Positions 5,920 through 23,138 of a stretch of DNA of 32,787 nucleotides are shown here, piece by piece. Both the position numbers and the translations under genes were made by a program. How positions within the stretch are numbered: position 1 is the first letter of the stretch; the number at the start of each line of letters is the position of its first letter. The notes under the pieces were generated by a model. The model saw only the letters and a program-made list of their open reading frames with translations. It was not told where the DNA came from and did not search any database. Origin of the DNA: a virus; IMG/VR virus record IMGVR_UViG_3300034175_000001, positions 1-32,787 of that record. One strand, written 5' to 3'.

Positions 5920-7140
5920 TTACGAGAGGAAGTCTACCAAAGTCTTCGACTCTTTTTCCTCCCAGACTTCATGCTTACGATGCACGTTCTGCTGGTAGGT
6001 GTAGTTGCTATCGATCCACTCACGCTTGCCTTCTAGCACAGCGTTAACTTCAGTAGCCATATCAAGGGCGGTCTTGACAGGAACGTTCTGGCAGATATGA
6101 TTAGCCGACTTCTTCGGGCTCAGCAGCTCGAAGTTAGTTGGCATACCCATGATGCTCAGCGCTTCGCGGTAATTGATGTACCGATCAGCATCAGGGTGAG
6201 TAAGCATACTTGGATAATGACCAACGAATGCGCCAATGAAGTCCTTAGGCACAATTGTCCCACGGCGCATAACATTACCGCCAGCAGCAAGCTTCGCATA
6301 CTTGTACTTACACTTTTCTACTTCGCGCTCATAGCCCTCTTTCTCGAGCCATGCACCGACTTGGTTGTAGTCATATCCACGCTGCTCGATGAACGAGAAG
6401 GTGTCATTAGAACGGACCTTCAGGAAGTCCATCTTCTCATTAGAGAACTCGTAGTGACTGATGCCACCAAACATCTCTTCAAGAATGAAGCGATAGTAAG
6501 GATCATCTTTCGAAGGAGTCTTAGAGCTGATCGGCTCCTGCATCGTATTGCTTCGTGCATTACGAATGACATCCTCGATCTTCTCCCATGGACGGTTGTA
6601 GTAACCCAAGAGCGGAGTCTTGTCGCCCTTCCAGAAGAAGTAGAAGCTGCGTTCACGTACCTGAGCGGTACCATGAAGCAGAGACTTGGTGCGGTAGATC
6701 GACATAGAGTAGCCATTGTCACGGCCAATCTTACGAACCTGCTCACGAATAGCTTTGCCGATCTTGCCAGCAAAACCAGGAGCGTTCTCACCCCAGAATA
6801 CGGTCGGCTTTAGTTCGCCTAGAACGTATTCAGCGGTCTTGATCATCCACTGGTTGTTTACATTATGCTCGCCAAAGCCATGACTGAGCTGAGATAGCCC
6901 AGCACAAGGACAGGTAGTGTTGACCACATCCACCGACTTGGAAGGCCTATCACCACGATCAATGTAATGATAAGGTACATCAGCGTTATGAACATCTCGC
7001 AGATGATGAATAAGATGCTGCTCATTGTCTTGGAAACCCGTGTAGGTCATTAGGTATTCAGGCAAACTATCATTAGCTTGCATCTGAGCAATAGTCATGC
7101 CGCCGATGAGCGGGATGATGCTCGCGTGTGTAATTGTCAA
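5920..7140 (-). CDS. DNA (cytosine-5) methyltransferase
   Basis: A 406-residue C5-MTase with the motifs in order: SAM-binding motif I (IIPLIGGMTIA, 8-18), catalytic PC motif TCPCAGLSQL (Cys79), ENAP for the ENV motif (118-121), QVRER (160-164) and the C-terminal QNVPVKTALDMA. It would methylate C5 of cytosine in DNA. The start is a TTG at 7140 overlapping the upstream stop (TTGA); the next ATG (7098) would cut into motif I. The gene sits with a dCMP hydroxymethylase and pyrophosphorylase-like gene, so the real substrate or group transferred may be unusual. The C-terminus KTLVDFLS resembles a clamp-binding peptide. Confidence 0.88.
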   Translation of the reverse strand: MTITHASIIPLIGGMTIAQMQANDSLPEYLMTYTGFQDNEQHLIHHLRDVHNADVPYHYIDRGDRPSKSVDVVNTTCPCAGLSQLSHGFGEHNVNNQWMIKTAEYVLGELKPTVFWGENAPGFAGKIGKAIREQVRKIGRDNGYSMSIYRTKSLLHGTAQVRERSFYFFWKGDKTPLLGYYNRPWEKIEDVIRNARSNTMQEPISSKTPSKDDPYYRFILEEMFGGISHYEFSNEKMDFLKVRSNDTFSFIEQRGYDYNQVGAWLEKEGYEREVEKCKYKYAKLAAGGNVMRRGTIVPKDFIGAFVGHYPSMLTHPDADRYINYREALSIMGMPTNFELLSPKKSANHICQNVPVKTALDMATEVNAVLEGKREWIDSNYTYQQNVHRKHEVWEEKESKTLVDFLS

Positions 7141-8446: not shown

Positions 8447-8635
8447 GTCCTTACGCCACAAAAGACCTATGCGGCTTACTGGTTTGTAGCCCATAGCTGT
8501 CAGCTGGTCATTGCTATGTTCACCCTTCAATACGAAGTTAGGCATAGGCTGGACACTGACAATATCTCGAGCTACAAGGTCAGCAAAAGTAAGTCGAGTC
8601 TGCTTCATAAGCTGCTCGATTTCAGATTTATCCAA
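8438..8635 (-). CDS. Hypothetical protein (65 aa)
   Basis: The frame runs through the end of the upstream gene. I choose the TTG at 8635, which has GGAG seven bases upstream and overlaps the preceding stop (8628), giving MDKSEIEQLMKQTRLTFADL and onward. An ATG at 8608 is the alternative (56 aa). The product is a small charged protein with an N-terminal helix and a beta-like C-terminal half (NFVLKGEHSNDQLTAMGYK). No family is known. It would be the first gene expressed from the internal promoter at 8814-8842. Confidence 0.55.
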   Translation of the reverse strand: MDKSEIEQLMKQTRLTFADLVARDIVSVQPMPNFVLKGEHSNDQLTAMGYKPVSRIGLLWRKDND

Positions 8636-9908
8636 AGAAGGACTCCAATGATGTAGATCCACCCTTGCCTGCCTCTTTCGAGATAGGTGCGTTAGCACGA
8701 TTAGCAGCTGTTGATGGACTGTCTTTTAGACGATTGAAGACATTGTACTGGCAACAGCCGATCTCAATGCCAAAGGTTGTGAACCTACCAAGCTCTGAAG
8801 CTTCTGTGAGGTACTTATAATCCATTTCTGAAGAAATGTCAAAGTATTTTTCTTGATTGTTCCTGATCGACAGGATCATTCTCATAGTCGTTCTAGGATT
8901 GATTGGAAAAGCGTTCCACAACGACTTAAGAGTAGCACATGCGCCCGGACCAGCAACGACGTAATCTGCGTTTTCATCCAGATTACCATGGCGGATATCT
9001 GGGTCATGATCGCGAAGAAGATTAAACCGATGCCCATGCTCATGCTCGATAAGAGCAGCAGAACCAATACTAGGCATACGTGCAAGGTTGCTAGAAAAGT
9101 GGTACCCATAGTACGGACCGATTCCAGGATACGATGTAAGGAAGGCATATGACTTTTCCATATCTGGTTTAGTCGAATAGAATGAAACCCAGTCCTGAGT
9201 CAGACTCTTGATCCAAGCGATCATATCTGACGTACGCATCTTACGTTCTTTAGAAGCTGAGTTAGGCGCTATTACTTGCGCGCCAGTACGAGGGTCGCTA
9301 ACGCCCCGTATATCAATAGCGGTAGGATTAAGACGAGCATGATCTCTAGATGACTTCTGTAGCGAGGTACGTAGTTCGGTGGTGCCCCAGAGCTGTGTCT
9401 TGTTATAAGACGCTAGCTCAATATTACGCATTACTGTGTATTCATATTCCGCATCGCTTCGCAGTCGATCAAAGTCAACGTAGGGCGTACCGGTCGGGGT
9501 GAGGTACGGAAGATCGGTTGCGGTGCCGGTGATAATATCGAGGGTTCGGCTAGGTCCATAGAACTTGACGATAGCAGAGTTGACGAGTCGGTTTGTAAAC
9601 GAGACCTTGTTGTTGTAATAAAGGTGTTCGTTAAGCCAGATGATCTCATCATGGAAGCTTCGATTGGGGTGAAAGTACGGAATAGGTCTTCCGTTGACCA
9701 CGAACCCAGTCCCAAATTCTTCACGGTGCTCGTATCCGCGTTGTGTATAATCTTCAAATGACTCATGGGTCTTACCAATTCTAACCGACCACTCCCTCTT
9801 GTTGAACTCACGAATGAACGAGCCAAGTGATGCTCGAACAGTATGATCGCAGTGGTCCCAGAGTTGGTTGTCAGTTAGTGAAACTACTTCAGATGTTGTC
9901 AGGGCCAT
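8628..9908 (-). CDS. Alpha-glutamyl/putrescinyl-thymine pyrophosphorylase-like protein
   Basis: A 426-residue protein. Its central segment YPGIGPYYGYHFSSNLAR followed by DENADYVVAGPGACATLKSLW fits the PGxGxF...DL...AGPG pattern of the aGPT-pyrophosphorylase family, which resembles helix-hairpin-helix DNA glycosylases. In known phages these act in thymidine hypermodification by replacing a pyrophosphate on activated 5-hydroxymethyl pyrimidines in DNA. The assignment is by motif memory, not alignment. A dCMP hydroxymethylase lies upstream in the same block, so the substrate might be a cytosine derivative here. The C-terminus STSLESFFG looks like a clamp-binding tail. An early promoter is embedded in its 3' third. 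Confidence 0.68.
   Translation of the reverse strand: MALTTSEVVSLTDNQLWDHCDHTVRASLGSFIREFNKREWSVRIGKTHESFEDYTQRGYEHREEFGTGFVVNGRPIPYFHPNRSFHDEIIWLNEHLYYNNKVSFTNRLVNSAIVKFYGPSRTLDIITGTATDLPYLTPTGTPYVDFDRLRSDAEYEYTVMRNIELASYNKTQLWGTTELRTSLQKSSRDHARLNPTAIDIRGVSDPRTGAQVIAPNSASKERKMRTSDMIAWIKSLTQDWVSFYSTKPDMEKSYAFLTSYPGIGPYYGYHFSSNLARMPSIGSAALIEHEHGHRFNLLRDHDPDIRHGNLDENADYVVAGPGACATLKSLWNAFPINPRTTMRMILSIRNNQEKYFDISSEMDYKYLTEASELGRFTTFGIEIGCCQYNVFNRLKDSPSTAANRANAPISKEAGKGGSTSLESFFG
8814..8842 (-). promoter_or_regulatory. sigma70-type promoter (P3) inside the pyrophosphorylase-like gene
   Basis: Minus strand: TTGACA (8842-8837), 17-bp spacer starting TTTCTTC, TATAAG (8819-8814), lying wholly in codons for FDISSEMDYK. 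The -35 extension and -10 are the same as in intergenic promoters P1 and P2. It would drive the 65-aa, 53-aa, GDSH and methyltransferase genes. Confidence 0.72.
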
Positions 9909-10547: not shown

Positions 10548-10999
10548 AGAATTGCTTCCTTAATATAGTCGATCATATCACCGATGTAATTAAAAAGTGG
10601 CAGTGCATAACGATCACATACCATCTCGATGTTACCACGACGCCAGAAGCCTTCGGGGCAGCATACTACGATGTCCTTACCAGACATAGCGAAGAGACCG
10701 AGTTCCATGAGAGTGATCGGTGCCTTACCAGCTGGATCGAAGTAATAGCAGATGATGTCTGCCTTTTCGAGATGCTCGAGCTCCCACGTAACCTGTTCAT
10801 TGAACTGTGGATCGTTAATGCTCTGCACCCAGCTACTGTCCCAGTCATCACGACGGGGATTGTAGATGACTACTGGTTTATCAGCTAGTGCCTTAGTTAC
10901 TGCCTCTTGCCAGTTAACGGCAGCACCCATATCGATGCTGCCTGCAAGAAATACCGACTTACAAGGAGTCGGCTGTGGGGCGAAGTAGACTTCAGCCAT
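10544..10999 (-). CDS. Nucleoside 2-deoxyribosyltransferase-like protein
   Basis: A 151-residue protein with the pattern of the Nuc_deoxyri_tr2 family: SVFLAGSIDMG near the N-terminus, VVIYNPRRDDWDSSW, FNEQVTWELEHLEKADIICYYF and PITLMELGLFA (the ELG-type catalytic glutamate), then CCPEGFWRRGN. Family members cleave or exchange the base of (deoxy)nucleosides or nucleotides, and they recur beside DNA-modification and nucleotide-salvage genes in phages. It overlaps MIPS by 8 bases. The substrate is unknown. Confidence 0.82.
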   Translation of the reverse strand: MAEVYFAPQPTPCKSVFLAGSIDMGAAVNWQEAVTKALADKPVVIYNPRRDDWDSSWVQSINDPQFNEQVTWELEHLEKADIICYYFDPAGKAPITLMELGLFAMSGKDIVVCCPEGFWRRGNIEMVCDRYALPLFNYIGDMIDYIKEAIL

Positions 11000-12167
11000 T
11001 TGCTTCTACGCTCTCACGCATCTGGTTGTGCTTGCTGGTCTGTGCAGTCCACTCACGATTTGCAAGTGCTTCACATTCAGCGTGAGCTTCCTGGATCATC
11101 AGCTGCGTTGGCGGAGTCTTCTGAGTAGCAGCCGAAGGACCACGAAGCGATCCGACCATACCCATCTCCTTAGCTACCGTTACATAACGGACAGCATCGA
11201 TAACTACGCCGGCCGAGTTAGGAGAGTCCTGAACTGAGAGACGAGCATCAAAGATAACAGGAGCGCCGCCAAAGCCTTCAGCTTCGATACGGAAGTGAGC
11301 GACCTTGTTATCGCCATGGTAAGCGATATAGCTCGACGGACCTGCATAGATACCGTTCTTTGGAACTGGGATACCGCGAATATCGTTCTGTGAACGAATC
11401 ACGTTCTCCTTAGAGATCTTCTTCGAAGCAAGACGGCTTTGATCCATCATGTTCAAGAAGTCGGTGTTACCACCATGGTTGGTCTGCTCGTGGAACTTGA
11501 TATGCATTCCACGGTTGAAGAACAGTTCCTGCAACGCCTGGCTGAGTACCGAAGCACCGAGCTGTGAACGCATATCATCACCGATAGCCGGGATACCAGC
11601 TTCGATAATGCGCTGCTCCCAGATAGGATCAGATACGATGAAGACTGGAATACAATTGACGAAAGGAACCTTAGCCTCGAGACAGCCCTCGACATAGAAC
11701 TCGGTAGCTTCCTGCGAACCTACTGGGAGATAGTTGAGGAGAACATCGACATCGTTCTCACGAAGATCACTGACCAGCTGCTCACGACTAAGTTCAGTCG
11801 ACCAATCATCGAGACGGAACGACTCATCAGCATCATGCTTGAGCATATGAGGAGCAACGCCGTCAAGGATGCGACCCATCTTAACGATGGTGTCACCACA
11901 CACGCCGTCGAGGTCATCCATAACTACATCAAAATCGATAGCGCAGTTTGGCTTGGTCGAGATAGCGCTAGACAGCATGTCGTTGACCTTACGCGGGTCA
12001 ACGTCGTATGCTAGTACGAACTCGATATCTTCTGGCTTGTATCCGCCGATCTCTGGAAAGGCTAGACCGTCTACGCGACCGGTCTTAGTATAGAGTGCAA
12101 CGCCTTCAATGAGGCTCTTAGCACAGTTACCGACACCTACGACGGCAACGCGAATCTTCTTATTCAT
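10992..12167 (-). CDS. myo-Inositol-3-phosphate synthase
   Basis: A 391-residue protein. The NAD-binding loop VVGVGNCAKSLIEG is at residues 9-22. Typical synthase segments follow: LAYDVDPRKV, VLLNYLPVGSQEAT, FVNCIPVFIVSDP, GDDMRSQLGASVL and NHGGNTDFLNM (catalytic region), with KIGIY-type binding in GIYAGPSSYIAYHGDNKVA. The length matches the prokaryotic form. The enzyme isomerises glucose-6-phosphate to inositol-phosphate using NAD. It is rare in phages. AGGA lies six bases before the ATG. The 87-base upstream leader holds a late-promoter-like box, and P4 lies inside the previous gene. The product might feed a base modification or alter host envelope lipids. Confidence 0.9.
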   Translation of the reverse strand: MNKKIRVAVVGVGNCAKSLIEGVALYTKTGRVDGLAFPEIGGYKPEDIEFVLAYDVDPRKVNDMLSSAISTKPNCAIDFDVVMDDLDGVCGDTIVKMGRILDGVAPHMLKHDADESFRLDDWSTELSREQLVSDLRENDVDVLLNYLPVGSQEATEFYVEGCLEAKVPFVNCIPVFIVSDPIWEQRIIEAGIPAIGDDMRSQLGASVLSQALQELFFNRGMHIKFHEQTNHGGNTDFLNMMDQSRLASKKISKENVIRSQNDIRGIPVPKNGIYAGPSSYIAYHGDNKVAHFRIEAEGFGGAPVIFDARLSVQDSPNSAGVVIDAVRYVTVAKEMGMVGSLRGPSAATQKTPPTQLMIQEAHAECEALANREWTAQTSKHNQMRESVEANG

Positions 12168-15407: not shown

Positions 15408-16025
15408 TTAACTCGGAGGCGCGATCCAAGTAGGAGTCGGCCGATTCTTCCAGGTGTGGATATGGGATTTGTACTTGTTATAGTACGCACGGTAGTTATC
15501 TGTAAGCGAACCAATCTTACAGTCATCGGGCATGCAGCTAGGCGCTGGTGTCATGTCCCAATCTTTAAGGTTCATCGGGGGAGTTTGCAGAGTATAGAGA
15601 AGACTAAACGTCTTGTGGACCTTACCATAGCGGTAGGTGTACTCTTGCAGGAGGCCGTCTAGATGATCGACTAGCCATAGGTAGTTCTGGACCGATGTAC
15701 GGCACCAGATGGCGGATGGATGGTTACGGTGAGATGCTCCATAGAGTAGAGCATCGCGGTCATCATCCAACCGCCAGACTTTAACATTGCGCTTCTTATA
15801 GCCCATTATCTTAGTGACAGGCATATAACAATCATGCTCTTCGCTCCACTCTTCGAAGACGTTGCACCATGGCGTCTCTCTGACCTCAATCGCTTCCTTA
15901 CCATCGAGGAGACGATGGGCTGTTGAAAGTAACTGTGCAGTCTCAACTATCATCTTTACGACATGCTTGTCGCAGAGTTCCTGAGCTGCTTGGTAGGCAT
16001 CAAAATGGACGAAGAATATGTTCAC
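15408..16025 (-). CDS. Conserved phage protein, possibly DNA-repair-related
   Basis: A 205-residue protein starting at GTG 16025, overlapping the deformylase stop (GTGA). The N-terminal CDKHVVKMIVETAQLLSTAH, the central HPSAIWCRTSVQNYLWLVDH and the EYTYRYGKVHKTF segment are features of a protein family widespread in tailed phages, usually without function. The DKHVVKMIxExxQ start has been compared with pyrimidine-dimer glycosylases, but I cannot confirm this. It is rich in histidine and tryptophan. It lies between peptide deformylase and a MazG-like gene. Confidence 0.75.
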   Translation of the reverse strand: MNIFFVHFDAYQAAQELCDKHVVKMIVETAQLLSTAHRLLDGKEAIEVRETPWCNVFEEWSEEHDCYMPVTKIMGYKKRNVKVWRLDDDRDALLYGASHRNHPSAIWCRTSVQNYLWLVDHLDGLLQEYTYRYGKVHKTFSLLYTLQTPPMNLKDWDMTPAPSCMPDDCKIGSLTDNYRAYYNKYKSHIHTWKNRPTPTWIAPPS

Positions 16026-16522
16026 TTATCTTTGCGCTTTGCTTGCTTCCACTTCTTAAATGCTTGCTCACGGTGAATGCTGTTAGCACGCTGATAGAAG
16101 TGAAGGCCGTTGAGGTGATCGAGCTCATGTTGGAAGATACGTGCTGTCATTCCGGTGAATGTCTTGGTGTAGACCTCACCGTCAGGACCAGTGAAACGTA
16201 CCTTGATAGACTTGGCTCTCTTTACTTTAACATAAAGCTTAGGAAATGTCAAACAGGCTTCTTCAAGAGTTACCAGTTCGTCACCAAAGACCACGATCTT
16301 CGGGTTGAAGCACGCAAAGGCAGGTTCACCCTCCATCACGAACACTCGATACGGCAAGCCAACTTGATTAGCCGCTAGACCGATGCCGTTGTTATCACGC
16401 ATGTAACTGACTAGTTGCTGGGCCAGCTCTTCTGGATCTACTGGCGGATTGACAAAGTTGAAGTTGTCGATCTCAGTCGTAAGAATCGAGTCGGTAGCTG
16501 GTACGAGAGCTAGATCAGTCAT
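16022..16522 (-). CDS. def: Peptide deformylase
   Basis: The enzyme removes the formyl group from new N-terminal methionines. All three motifs are present (numbering from MTDLALV): GIGLAANQVG (46-55), EEACLTFP with metal-binding C90 (EGCLS in bacteria), and QHELDHL with H132, E133 and H136. The frame is open further upstream, but the ATG at 16522 overlaps the preceding stop and gives 166 residues, the usual size. Phage deformylases are common in marine T4-like phages and are thought to support translation of short-lived proteins. Promoter P7 lies about 70 bases upstream. Confidence 0.93.
   Translation of the reverse strand: MTDLALVPATDSILTTEIDNFNFVNPPVDPEELAQQLVSYMRDNNGIGLAANQVGLPYRVFVMEGEPAFACFNPKIVVFGDELVTLEEACLTFPKLYVKVKRAKSIKVRFTGPDGEVYTKTFTGMTARIFQHELDHLNGLHFYQRANSIHREQAFKKWKQAKRKDK
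16224..16252 (-). promoter_or_regulatory. Weaker sigma70-like promoter (P6) inside the deformylase gene
   Basis: Minus strand: TTGACA (16252-16247) with the same TTTCC extension as P1, 17-bp spacer, TAAAGT (16229-16224), which matches the -10 at only 4/6. It may be active or a decayed member of the TTGACATTT family. Confidence 0.4.
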
Positions 16523-16973
16523 ATGCGGGGTCATCCAAAAACTTAGTGAGCGTGTTAGATACGATCTGACCACTAGGTAGATGCGTAGTAGTCTTATATA
16601 CCATCGGCTCAAAAATGTCAAGGATATATGGCATGTGCCGCTCTTTTAATTGCTTGAGCATGTGTTTCGTACCACGGGAAACACCATCCCAAAGAACAAT
16701 GCCACCGTCCGCAAAGTCTGCCATTTCCACATTACGAACGATGCCTGAAGCTTTACCGTGTAGGTCCCACATCGCGGGAAACTCAGCGACATGAGCTCTG
16801 TTATCCTTAGCCCACTGCTCGCCAAGGAGATCAGGACCAGTTGCACGCCCAGATACAACAATGGTGATCTTACCGTGCTCAAGCTCGAACTTTTTAATCG
16901 CGGTTTCGAGTTTTGCTCTATGATACGGGTGGCTATGATGGATTGTTCTTGAGCCTGCGATAACAACTTTCAT
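16515..16973 (-). CDS. SLOG-domain (YspA/DUF2493-like) protein
   Basis: A 152-residue Rossmann-like protein of the SLOG group: MKVVIAGSRTI at the N-terminus, IVVSGRATGPDLLGEQWAK (the GxxxGxD ligand loop), AEFPAMWDLHGKASGIVRN and IVLWDGVSRGTKHM. SLOG proteins bind nucleotide or nucleic-acid ligands, and phage copies often accompany ADP-ribose or modified-base metabolism; the ligand is unknown here. It contains P7 in its 3' part. The C-terminus TLTKFLDDPAYD resembles the end of gp55 (GVEKFMDDPE), a hint of a shared partner. Confidence 0.85.
   Translation of the reverse strand: MKVVIAGSRTIHHSHPYHRAKLETAIKKFELEHGKITIVVSGRATGPDLLGEQWAKDNRAHVAEFPAMWDLHGKASGIVRNVEMADFADGGIVLWDGVSRGTKHMLKQLKERHMPYILDIFEPMVYKTTTHLPSGQIVSNTLTKFLDDPAYD
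16593..16621 (-). promoter_or_regulatory. sigma70-type promoter (P7) upstream of peptide deformylase
   Basis: Minus strand: TTGACA (16621-16616), 17-bp spacer starting TTTTTGA, TATAAG (16598-16593). It is the same consensus as P1-P3, embedded in the SLOG gene and about 70 bases before the deformylase start. Confidence 0.72.
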
Positions 16974-20127: not shown

Positions 20128-20156
20128 AATATATCATAATGACATAGAAATGTCAA
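20128..20156 (-). promoter_or_regulatory. sigma70-type promoter (P8) for gp47-gp46
   Basis: Minus strand: TTGACA (20156-20151), 17-bp spacer starting TTTCTAT, TATATT (20133-20128). It lies between gp55 and gp47. A 6-bp inverted repeat (TATTGG at 20113-20118, CCAATA at 20126-20131) overlaps its -10 and start region. Confidence 0.82.
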
Positions 20157-20159
20157 GGC

Positions 20160-20735
20160 TTATTCAGGATCGTCCATAAACTTCTCAACACCGGTCGTCT
20201 TCGTAACTTTCTTCTTGACCATCTTTGACTCGAAGTTCTCGATGATACGGTTAGAGACGTCGTTGTTGGTCATATCCATTGGTGCTTGACCTTCCCACGC
20301 TGCTGAGTCATACATCTCATAAAGACCCGAGTTGTGGATCGCCTTATGCTTGATGTAGTTGTGCTTGTTCTCTTTCTGGATACGCCTCACGAAGGCCCTC
20401 CATGCGATCAAGCTGAAGTAGCCGAATGGGTTCTGCTTCTGTTCATTTGGATTGAAGTTATCGACTGCTGCTAGGCAGTTCTCGATACCATCTCCCACCA
20501 TCTCCTCACGGAACGAGTAGTTTACGAAGTTTGGTCGATACGACAGCTTCTCACAGAGCATGTAGAAGCAGTGACCGAGGTAGTTGTTGATGCGTGGCTT
20601 AGGCGTACCGTTAGCTTCAGCTTCGATAGCTGCTACTCGGTACTTTGTCATCTCTACATGGAACTTCTTCTTGTCGATGTAGTTATGCGATACACGCTTC
20701 TTCTTAACGATAGGCGTAGGCGTAGGTGGGATCAT
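20160..20735 (-). CDS. 55: gp55, late-transcription sigma factor
   Basis: T4 gp55 recruits host RNA polymerase to TATAAATA late promoters and, through its C-terminal tail, to the gp45 clamp. This 191-residue protein (T4: 185) carries the expected core: NNYLGHCFYMLCEKLSYRPNF, FREEMVGDGIENCLAAVDNFN and FGYFSLIAWRAFVRRIQKE, the sigma-region-2-like part. Its end, TGVEKFMDDPE, fits a clamp-binding peptide. The frame opens at ATG 20771, but ATG 20735 has AGGA nine bases upstream and is preferred. Late promoters before the head genes in this window fit the presence of gp55. Confidence 0.93.
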   Translation of the reverse strand: MIPPTPTPIVKKKRVSHNYIDKKKFHVEMTKYRVAAIEAEANGTPKPRINNYLGHCFYMLCEKLSYRPNFVNYSFREEMVGDGIENCLAAVDNFNPNEQKQNPFGYFSLIAWRAFVRRIQKENKHNYIKHKAIHNSGLYEMYDSAAWEGQAPMDMTNNDVSNRIIENFESKMVKKKVTKTTGVEKFMDDPE

Positions 20736-20749
20736 GATCAAAATTCCTG

Positions 20750-20778
20750 TTGACAATTTGCTGGCTACCATATATAAT
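20750..20778 (+). promoter_or_regulatory. Perfect consensus sigma70 promoter on the plus strand
   Basis: Plus strand: TTGACA (20750-20755), exactly 17 bp, TATAAT (20773-20778). Both boxes match 6/6. It lies upstream of gp55 but reads away from it, antisense to the Sm-like gene and uvsW. No plus-strand open frame begins nearby. Confidence 0.6.
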
Positions 20779-20790
20779 GGCTTTAGCCTT

Positions 20791-21201
20791 TCAATGATAT
20801 GATTCTGTATTATCTAGGGTGAAGTTAAGGGGTTCTTTACCAGCTGTCTTAATGACCTGCAGCTTGAAGTAGATACGTGATGCTGTATCAGTGATCTTAT
20901 CATCGTAGCTCTGTTCAGCTAGTTTGGCGAACTCTACTGCAGCCTTATAGTATGTCTTAAACGGTGGACTCATAGCGGTCATAGCCATGATGTGGCTCTT
21001 GATGACTGGTATCTTACGTTCATGTGACTTCTTACAGAACTTGATCAGAGCCGATGTGGTTGATCCATCCTCATTGAAGTATTCTTCTTCGATTAGTGGA
21101 TCTTCCAAGAGTAGTACCGGTGAGCCTTCGTTCACATCCTCTGGGACACGAGCGTAGACTTCTTCTCCGTTGCTGAGCTTGATGATTGAGTAAAGCTTCA
21201 T
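20791..21201 (-). CDS. Sm-like small protein between uvsW and gp55
   Basis: A 136-residue protein whose first 50 residues (IIKLSNGEEVYARVPEDV ... VLLLEDPLIEEE) have the strand pattern of an Sm/LSm-like barrel; the remainder is helical (FKTYYKAAVEFAKLAEQSYDD). Genes of this kind occur beside uvsW in many marine T4-like phages with no known role. RNA binding is plausible from the fold alone. The start overlaps the uvsW stop (ATGA). A perfect promoter on the opposite strand points into its 3' end. Confidence 0.72.
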   Translation of the reverse strand: MKLYSIIKLSNGEEVYARVPEDVNEGSPVLLLEDPLIEEEYFNEDGSTTSALIKFCKKSHERKIPVIKSHIMAMTAMSPPFKTYYKAAVEFAKLAEQSYDDKITDTASRIYFKLQVIKTAGKEPLNFTLDNTESYH

Positions 21202-22646
21202 ACGTTAAGGTTCACTTTATGGATACGGTATTCGAACTGCTCTTCAGCGTAGATCTTAATGCGCTCTACGAAGTGACGAAGAGTATGGTTCTGTTTTGAC
21301 TTCCAACTAAGGTCGTCAGCGATATCATAGAGCGTCATATTCAGCTTAGTAGTCGACTTCCTAAGTCCTCGGCCGATGCTCTGAAGCACCTTGATGCGAG
21401 CCTTAGAAGGCGATGAGAATACAACGTTATGCAGATTCTTGATGTTGATGCCGGTTGAGAATGTTCCGCTTGAACAGACTGCAATGGCATTACTCTCGGT
21501 CTCGAGGATCTTACGAATGACCTCACGAGCATCTGCATCCACCTTACCAGAGACGAAGTAGACCGGACGGTCCGTCGTGTCCTTGATCAGTTTAGCTAAT
21601 GGTTCGCCGTGCTTTTCCACGAACTGGAACAAGATGAGGGTGTTACCCTTAAGGTTTGCAGCCAGATTGCGAATGAATTTGTTACGTGCTTCGCTAGTAA
21701 CGATGTAGTTCAGCTCATCGTCGTATGCTCCGTTGGCTGCCGTCATCTTGCAGATCTCATCTGGGTGACGAAGGACTAGAGCTTCTACCTGGAGCTTAGC
21801 GATAACACCCTGGTCCATCAGTTCCTTAGTCGTAATGACCTTATGGACCTGGCCGAATAGACCTTCGAGGACTAGCTTGTTAGTCTCTGTTCCGTCCAGA
21901 GTACCAGTTAGACCGACACGGTACGGACAATCAGTTAGCTTAGTCATAAGGGTCGTTAGAGACTTCGCTTTGAAGCCGTGTGCTTCGTCTCCGATAACCA
22001 GCTTAAAGCGATTGAACCAAGTCTTTGGAAGCTGATACACTGACTGCCAAGTGGTTACGACTACTGGCTTGTCGGTGTTTTTGTCGTGCCCTGAGTAGAT
22101 CCGATGCACGTTCTTCTCAGAGTTAAATCCATACTCTTCGAAGTCTCCGAACATCTGATTAACGAGTGACGTGGTAGGCACTACGACTAGAGTTGGTACG
22201 TTGAAGTAACGAATCAGCAGATAGATGATGAAGCTCTTACCCGAAGCAGTCGGTGAGAGCAACAGTGTCCTACGCTTCTGAACCGCCTTAATGAAAGCGT
22301 CCATCTGGTGACCGTGAGGAGTGAGGGTTGGATTGAGCTTCTGTACGAAAGCAAGAGCATCATCCATATTGAATGGAGTGTCTCTAAACTTCGGTGGAAT
22401 GACAAGCATGTACTGTCGCTCATAACAGAACTTAGCGAGCTTTGGAAGTAAACCAGCATAGAGGAGGGCATTATAAGGATTAAAGAGCCTTATCTTGCCA
22501 TCCCACATGCCACATTTGAACTTAGGCATGAACTTGTAACCAGGTACGAAGAAAGTGAAGTAGTCACTGACTTCCTGAGCGATACCAGCGTCGCATACTA
22601 CGCGAAGGTTAACATCGTCAATGTACTCAATTGTAATCGTATCCAA
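21198..22646 (-). CDS. uvsW: UvsW, recombination helicase
   Basis: A superfamily-2 helicase of 482 residues (T4: 503). Motif I SPTASGKS is at 131-138, motif II DEAH at 220-223, motif VI QSIGRGLRK near residue 428. T4 UvsW unwinds branched DNA and R-loops and controls the switch from origin- to recombination-dependent replication. The TTG start (22646) is supported because the first 60 residues align with T4 UvsW (YIDDVNLRVVCD; FTFFVPGYKFMPKFKCGMWDGKIRL), and the next methionine is 39 residues on. GGA lies seven bases upstream. Confidence 0.95.
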   Translation of the reverse strand: MDTITIEYIDDVNLRVVCDAGIAQEVSDYFTFFVPGYKFMPKFKCGMWDGKIRLFNPYNALLYAGLLPKLAKFCYERQYMLVIPPKFRDTPFNMDDALAFVQKLNPTLTPHGHQMDAFIKAVQKRRTLLLSPTASGKSFIIYLLIRYFNVPTLVVVPTTSLVNQMFGDFEEYGFNSEKNVHRIYSGHDKNTDKPVVVTTWQSVYQLPKTWFNRFKLVIGDEAHGFKAKSLTTLMTKLTDCPYRVGLTGTLDGTETNKLVLEGLFGQVHKVITTKELMDQGVIAKLQVEALVLRHPDEICKMTAANGAYDDELNYIVTSEARNKFIRNLAANLKGNTLILFQFVEKHGEPLAKLIKDTTDRPVYFVSGKVDADAREVIRKILETESNAIAVCSSGTFSTGINIKNLHNVVFSSPSKARIKVLQSIGRGLRKSTTKLNMTLYDIADDLSWKSKQNHTLRHFVERIKIYAEEQFEYRIHKVNLNV

Positions 22647-22647
22647 C

Positions 22648-23082
22648 TTATGATCCGTTCATGAACCTCATATAGTCGACGGCTGTTTTAACTTGGAACC
22701 CGAGTCGTTGGATAACTTCCATGATAGACTTAAGAGTCTCGACTTTCTCGTTTTGCATGCCAATCTTAAGACTGAGTGTGATCATGTCTTTATCAGCATC
22801 GATCCAAGGACCTACATCGGACTTAATGATTCGGCCCTTAGGAGGTAGCACCCAACCCTTATCGTGTTGCTCTTGGGTTGGACCATCGATATAGAATAAT
22901 TGTTTGTCTAACTTAAGCTCTTTGAGCTCTGCTTCGTATTTCTTAAGTAGCAGTCTCTCGTGAGAGAGGATCTTAGCGTACTTGGCGTGCATCTGAGGAA
23001 TGCCTAGGGCAACTACATCGAGTTTGCCTTTGTCCAGCTGAGAGTCTTGGTCCCACTCTGTGAAGATGTCTTCTAGTTTCAT
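22648..23082 (-). CDS. uvsY: UvsY, recombination mediator
   Basis: A 144-residue protein (T4: 137) starting MKLEDIFTEWDQDSQLDKGKL. It keeps the T4 UvsY layout: N-terminal MKLEDI, a helical region MHAKYAKILSHERLLLKKYEAEL, an SADKDM-like patch (DADKDMITLSLKIG) and C-terminal RLGFQVKTAVDYMRFMNG. UvsY loads UvsX recombinase on gp32-covered single strands. Promoter P9 lies upstream. The order uvsY-uvsW-gp55-gp47-gp46 resembles that of cyanophages. Confidence 0.93.
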   Translation of the reverse strand: MKLEDIFTEWDQDSQLDKGKLDVVALGIPQMHAKYAKILSHERLLLKKYEAELKELKLDKQLFYIDGPTQEQHDKGWVLPPKGRIIKSDVGPWIDADKDMITLSLKIGMQNEKVETLKSIMEVIQRLGFQVKTAVDYMRFMNGS

Positions 23083-23109: not shown

Positions 23110-23138
23110 TATATAACATACTTTCGTCAAAATGTCAA
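23110..23138 (-). promoter_or_regulatory. sigma70-type promoter (P9) for uvsY-uvsW
   Basis: Minus strand: TTGACA (23138-23133), 17-bp spacer starting TTTTGAC, TATATA (23115-23110), with TATAAT two bases further on. Its -35 overlaps the stop codon of the tail-tube-like gene. It separates late structural genes from recombination genes. Confidence 0.75.

Follow-up and report, generated by a model that had tools for sequence, protein, structure and literature searches.

In Bacillus subtilis, a strong antisense promoter is set against a weak sense promoter at helD (PMC12802891), and the same article cites phage 186 as a precedent for such a pairing. In bacteriophage T4, the RNA made from a promoter at the origin oriF primes replication, and UvsW, which is made late, from a late promoter, acts in unwinding (PMC3016281). 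The T4 genes alt, modA, modB, motA and asi are missing from T4-like cyanophages (PMC2984593), which raises the question of how these phages time early, middle and late expression.

The locus described here lies in a window of 32,787 nucleotides (the whole stretch of viral DNA that was analysed), which represents part of the genome of a T4-like phage. Its gene order uvsY-uvsW-Sm-like-gp55-gp47-gp46 is shared with Kyanoviridae, S-PM2 and Mosig among them. The initial annotation had placed every gene on the minus strand, which holds for the apparent protein-coding genes between 16.5 and 25 kb, and had reported a perfect plus-strand TTGACA-17-TATAAT promoter at 20750-20778, which is present exactly as claimed. 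It matches the consensus at 12 of 12 positions and is the sole perfect site in the 32.8-kb window, where 0.005 exact matches are expected (first-order Markov model, both strands). The features of the locus are as follows.

20128 to 20156, minus strand: leftward gp47 promoter, TTGACA-17-TATATT, by consensus match
20160 to 20735, minus strand: gp55, the late sigma factor (phrog_234, 1e-48), start re-assigned to 20735
20750 to 20755, plus strand: -35 hexamer TTGACA, with TTGACAATTT invariant in five close relatives
20773 to 20778, plus strand: -10 hexamer TATAAT, after a spacer of 17 bp
20779 to 20788, plus strand: start-site dyad GGCtttaGCC, a short inverted repeat that covaries in relatives, where its loop usually holds TGT
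20785, plus strand: predicted transcription start, 7 nt past the -10 box, with a conserved TG at the equivalent place in relatives
20791 to 21201, minus strand: Sm-like or 'methylamine utilization' gene (phrog_471; PF16243 below the cut-off), the first that an antisense RNA would cross
21198 to 22646, minus strand: uvsW helicase, the likely target of antisense interference
22648 to 23082, minus strand: uvsY recombination mediator
23110 to 23138, minus strand: facing leftward promoter of uvsY-uvsW-Sm-gp55, TTGACA-17-TATATA, 10/12 by consensus match

The promoter is wholly intergenic and fills the 55-nt gap (20736-20790) between gp55 and the Sm-like gene. The longer open reading frame of gp55 starts at ATG 20771, but the N-termini of its relatives align from about 20735 only, and the start is therefore most likely ATG 20735, with an AGGA ribosome-binding site at 20748-20745. 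With gp55 starting there, coding constraint as the cause of the promoter's conservation is excluded in the window, and is possible only for a lineage, discussed below, in which the element lies inside uvsW. The predicted start at about 20785, placed by the spacing rule of 7 nt after the -10 box, is 6 nt ahead of the Sm-like stop codon, so that an RNA beginning there would be antisense to the Sm-like gene, uvsW and uvsY and would not run over gp55. As noted previously, no plus-strand gene starts nearby in the open reading frame listing; there is no plus-strand reading frame directly downstream of the promoter in the window, which rules out a small gene of this kind as its target. An intrinsic terminator is likewise absent directly downstream of the window site. 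The possibility that a late (gp55) promoter had been mistaken for a sigma70 promoter is disfavoured by the -35 box and by the spacing of 16-17.

The surroundings hold further features. A second promoter class, TTGACATTT-17-TATAAG/TATATA, stands ahead of many genes, and its -10 box usually lacks the final T. It is found on the minus strand of the window at 23138-23110, 20156-20128, 16621-16593 and 4137-4109 as well as in L070-L078, with a variant -10 box, TAGAAT, at 93-102 kb of a close relative; some of the matches in the window (8842, 12448) fall within conserved coding sequence. The minus-strand gene at 8628-9908 has a weak Pfam match, below the cut-off, to the 5-hmdU DNA kinase helical domain (PF18723), which hints at hypermodified DNA, and a C5 cytosine methylase is encoded near it (5920-7140). 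A gene for myo-inositol-1-phosphate synthase, an unusual phage metabolic gene, lies at 10992-12167 (minus strand), and a peptide deformylase gene at 16022-16621.

Conservation of the boxes in related phages, which the initial annotation had proposed as a check, is observed: in close relatives, neither TTGACAATTT nor TATAAT changes, while most of the spacer varies. In the first scan of viral contigs, which gave 58 gp55 loci, a 12/12 antisense promoter was found just upstream of gp55 in 14, all five closest relatives included, and a near-perfect one in two more. Later scans and named genomes extended the set to 243 non-redundant loci, related by descent and thus contributing non-independent events, in which there are 49 perfect antisense sites in 68 kb beside gp55 and 15 in 1,338 kb elsewhere in these loci, a 64-fold enrichment; for antisense sites with a single mismatch, the enrichment beside gp55 is 31-fold. 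A stricter test, which leaves the window's own clade uncounted because its dyad arms are 3 bp long and without TGT, places the element upstream of gp55 in antisense orientation at roughly two thirds of the loci (145/228), compared to 19/228 on the sense strand and 4/180 antisense downstream in matched controls. The expectation that such a site is unlikely by chance is thus borne out, and the alternative that the site has no role and is a fortuitous match or a by-product of AT-rich intergenic sequence, which the count expected for the window, the family-wide enrichment and the matched controls contradict at the sequence level, is highly improbable.

The carriers include cyanophages, and those with names comprise S-PM2 (element at AJ630128 84438-84474, minus strand), S-SSM5 (NC_015289 121328-121364, minus strand), ACG-2014i, ACG-2014f, the SAR11 phage Mosig (MT647606 21318-21353, plus strand) and phiN3 of Sinorhizobium (NC_028945 24954-24990, plus strand), among others. 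In many carriers, a sense gp55 promoter stands back-to-back with the antisense one, and the window's clade has no clear sense member. In the closest large relative (173 kb), the element is the one perfect plus-strand promoter within the long run of minus-strand genes. A separate case is Ochrobactrum phage OC (L087), where a perfect antisense promoter with a CGC/GCG dyad is found at about position 1389, upstream of uvsY and not beside gp55. The spacing of the boxes (17 bp, within the 16-18 bp of sigma70 promoters) and their conservation next to a variable spacer strongly support a sigma70-type promoter antisense to the neighbouring genes. In our best reading, it is a genuine and strong promoter recognised by the host RNA polymerase in its unmodified, sigma70-bearing form, and we infer transcription from it. 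The distribution points to an element that has spread widely through the family and for which we propose a role in early-infection control. It is apparently undescribed: the open-access literature that we searched contained no report of an antisense promoter at gp55/uvsW.

What, then, is its target? Where genes are inserted between the Sm-like gene and gp55, the element lies about 300-950 nt from gp55, and in an inspected example (L272) it adjoins the 3′ end of the Sm-like gene. A lineage without the gap (L034, L035, L037, L041, L043, L051) has an equivalent TTGACC-17-TGTGTATAAT with a dyad, also antisense, at a distance of approximately 1,250-1,340 nt from gp55 on the upstream side; in L035, this position falls within uvsW. 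The orientation toward uvsW/uvsY is what stays constant across lineages. Since the element stays by the Sm-like gene despite insertions, and since its equivalent can be inside uvsW, the likely target is uvsW/uvsY rather than gp55. The earlier suggestion that the promoter tunes gp55 or UvsW thus needs to be narrowed: an effect on gp55 would be less direct, as the promoter points away from it, while uvsW and uvsY are retained as the shared targets by position.

We tentatively favour a reading, to which we assign a probability of roughly 0.45, in which a sigma70 promoter fixed antisense to Sm-like-uvsW-uvsY represses uvsY-uvsW-(gp55) early and is silent after the sigma switch. The uvsY promoter opposes the antisense promoter at a distance of about 2.3 kb and is the weaker of the two, with 10/12 versus 12/12 matches (strength being judged by consensus only). 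Early in infection, the rightward antisense promoter would fire against it, and polymerase collision and/or antisense RNA would hold down uvsY-uvsW-Sm-like and the read-through into gp55. Once gp55 takes over the polymerase, we infer, the sigma70 antisense promoter would fall quiet and the leftward unit be released. Such early antisense interference with uvsY-uvsW would fit the orientation, the asymmetry in strength and the shared target, and occlusion of leftward transcription, already raised in the initial annotation, is plausible as the leading mechanism. Two observations count against the model: around one third of the sampled loci have no recognisable element, and most cyanophages have their own sense gp55 promoter, such that gp55 there need not rely on read-through.

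The family-wide spread, and likewise a dyad at the start site, go beyond the initial annotation. The -10 box is followed straight away by a short inverted repeat whose loop usually contains TGT; of the 137 elements that bear TGT, 133 have it at offset 5-6. A stem of 4 bp or more is seen in 57 of 158 elements, compared to an expectation of 14 when columns are shuffled and a maximum of 26 over 200 such shuffles, and the arms covary (AACAG/CTGTT, AACTG/CAGTT, AACCT/AGGTT, GGACT/AGTCC, CAGGA/TCCTG). If G.T pairs on the antisense strand are allowed, stems of at least 4 bp increase from 49 to 74 of 93, a gain that stems largely from one cyanophage group, whereas allowing A.C gives only 50. The dyad is not a general feature of phage promoters, since 4-6% of sense promoters have a stem of 4 bp or more, versus 41% here. 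Palindromes of the type GCGAAGC were also seen in L044, L062 and L082, where they lie in non-coding DNA immediately past the antisense promoter.

Because the dyad straddles the expected start, an RNA from the normal start would hold one arm only; the pairing would have to take place within the non-template strand of the DNA, unless the dyad serves as an operator for a protein. In that case, the site would be an operator first and a promoter second, binding a putative phage regulator of a small set of early promoters, and the antisense copy would either be autoregulatory or have been inherited as a by-product that affects uvsW little. Dyads do differ between phages and match within a genome: the word of the gp55 copy recurs at one to three other sigma70-like promoters in five of six genomes, with totals of 2 in S-PM2, 3 in S-SSM5, 2 in phiN3, 3 in Melnitz and one in Mosig, and 4 copies of GCTTTGG in the 173-kb close relative (the L011 relative). 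Several other copies stand ahead of genes in sense orientation, CP12 in S-SSM5 being an example, and the second copy of phiN3 is again antisense, in a gap. These matches suggest a common trans-acting factor or copied promoter cassettes. However, the dyad is short (9-15 bp), its frequent compensatory pair swaps and G.T wobble resemble strand pairing rather than a protein site, and its fixed place throughout the family speaks against a by-product, so that we regard the operator as quite unlikely. For the interference reading, the dyad might be the point of co-regulation between the antisense promoter and the few promoters of a genome that share it, though its presence in sense before ordinary genes means that it is not specific to interference, which again counts against the model.

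The main rival to interference, though an unlikely one, is a replication origin, in which the promoter RNA would form an R-loop that primes rightward replication through uvsW, as in T4 oriF at uvsY. The dyad would help to keep the displaced strand open, for which the G.T wobble, favouring the non-template/antisense strand, would be suitable, and UvsW, whose gene is overlapped, would later unwind the R-loop. A strong orphan promoter with neither an open reading frame nor a conserved terminator, in the neighbourhood of uvsW and uvsY, agrees with this, as does the uvsY unit of phage T2, which likewise runs toward the 3′ end of uvsW; T4 oriF requires only a promoter and a downstream AT-rich element, and T4 oriE uses an early promoter (PMC3016281). 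However, in six genomes there is no GC-skew switch at the gp55 copy (skew being a weak proxy), downstream AT enrichment is slight or absent (AT content from about 0.01 under to 0.09 over the genome average, a weak test), and elsewhere the same dyad accompanies ordinary promoters in sense orientation.

It is also unlikely that the promoter gives rise to a defined cis-antisense RNA, comparable to CfrI at psbA in S-PM2, that base-pairs with the Sm-like/uvsW mRNA and alters how stable it is or how it is translated. The predicted start close to the Sm-like stop would suit such an RNA, as would its first approximately 20 predicted nucleotides, which are purine-rich and conserved, and antisense RNA is known from S-PM2 (PMC2984593). 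Yet no terminator position is shared across 151 loci, nor does one stand beside the window site; there is no match to an Rfam family, and the equivalent element can lie elsewhere, inside uvsW. A combined scheme, a Kyanoviridae-wide switch in which the orphan RNA from a single sigma70 promoter, with a hairpin at its start site, would prime R-loop replication while antisense transcription silences uvsW and gp55 read-through, with gp55 flipping both by replacing sigma70, strikes us as rather improbable.

A conserved orphan sigma70 promoter beside the genes of the late sigma factor and an R-loop helicase could read the sigma state of the polymerase. If true, this would give the phage timing switch a concrete, testable component, which might also be an origin of replication. 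Direct testing is possible, as several of the carriers are in culture and their hosts are named.

How does the locus compare to known systems? As in helD/pps of B. subtilis and in phage 186, where the output is set by the polymerase state (PMC12802891), a stronger promoter faces a weaker one; unlike there, some 2.3 kb separates the two promoters, the presumed change of state is the switch from sigma70 to gp55, and interference is a proposal. The S-PM2 RNA CfrI is another case of cis-antisense transcription in a T4-like cyanophage, here predicted from the sequence, but CfrI is found at a different place, psbA and a homing endonuclease, and is a defined RNA of approximately 225 nt (PMC2984593). 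With the divergent sigma70 gp55 promoters of cyanophages, the locus shares an arrangement in which the sense member is often back-to-back with the antisense element, whereas the window's clade has no clear sense member and the antisense member has no gene. The likeness to T4 oriF consists of a promoter in the uvsY/uvsW region, a transcript directed toward uvsW and a connection of UvsW to R-loop biology (PMC3016281); at oriF, however, T4 uses a MotA middle promoter, from which uvsY is transcribed as well, while the promoter described here is a sigma70 promoter without a gene, for which an origin role is a candidate.
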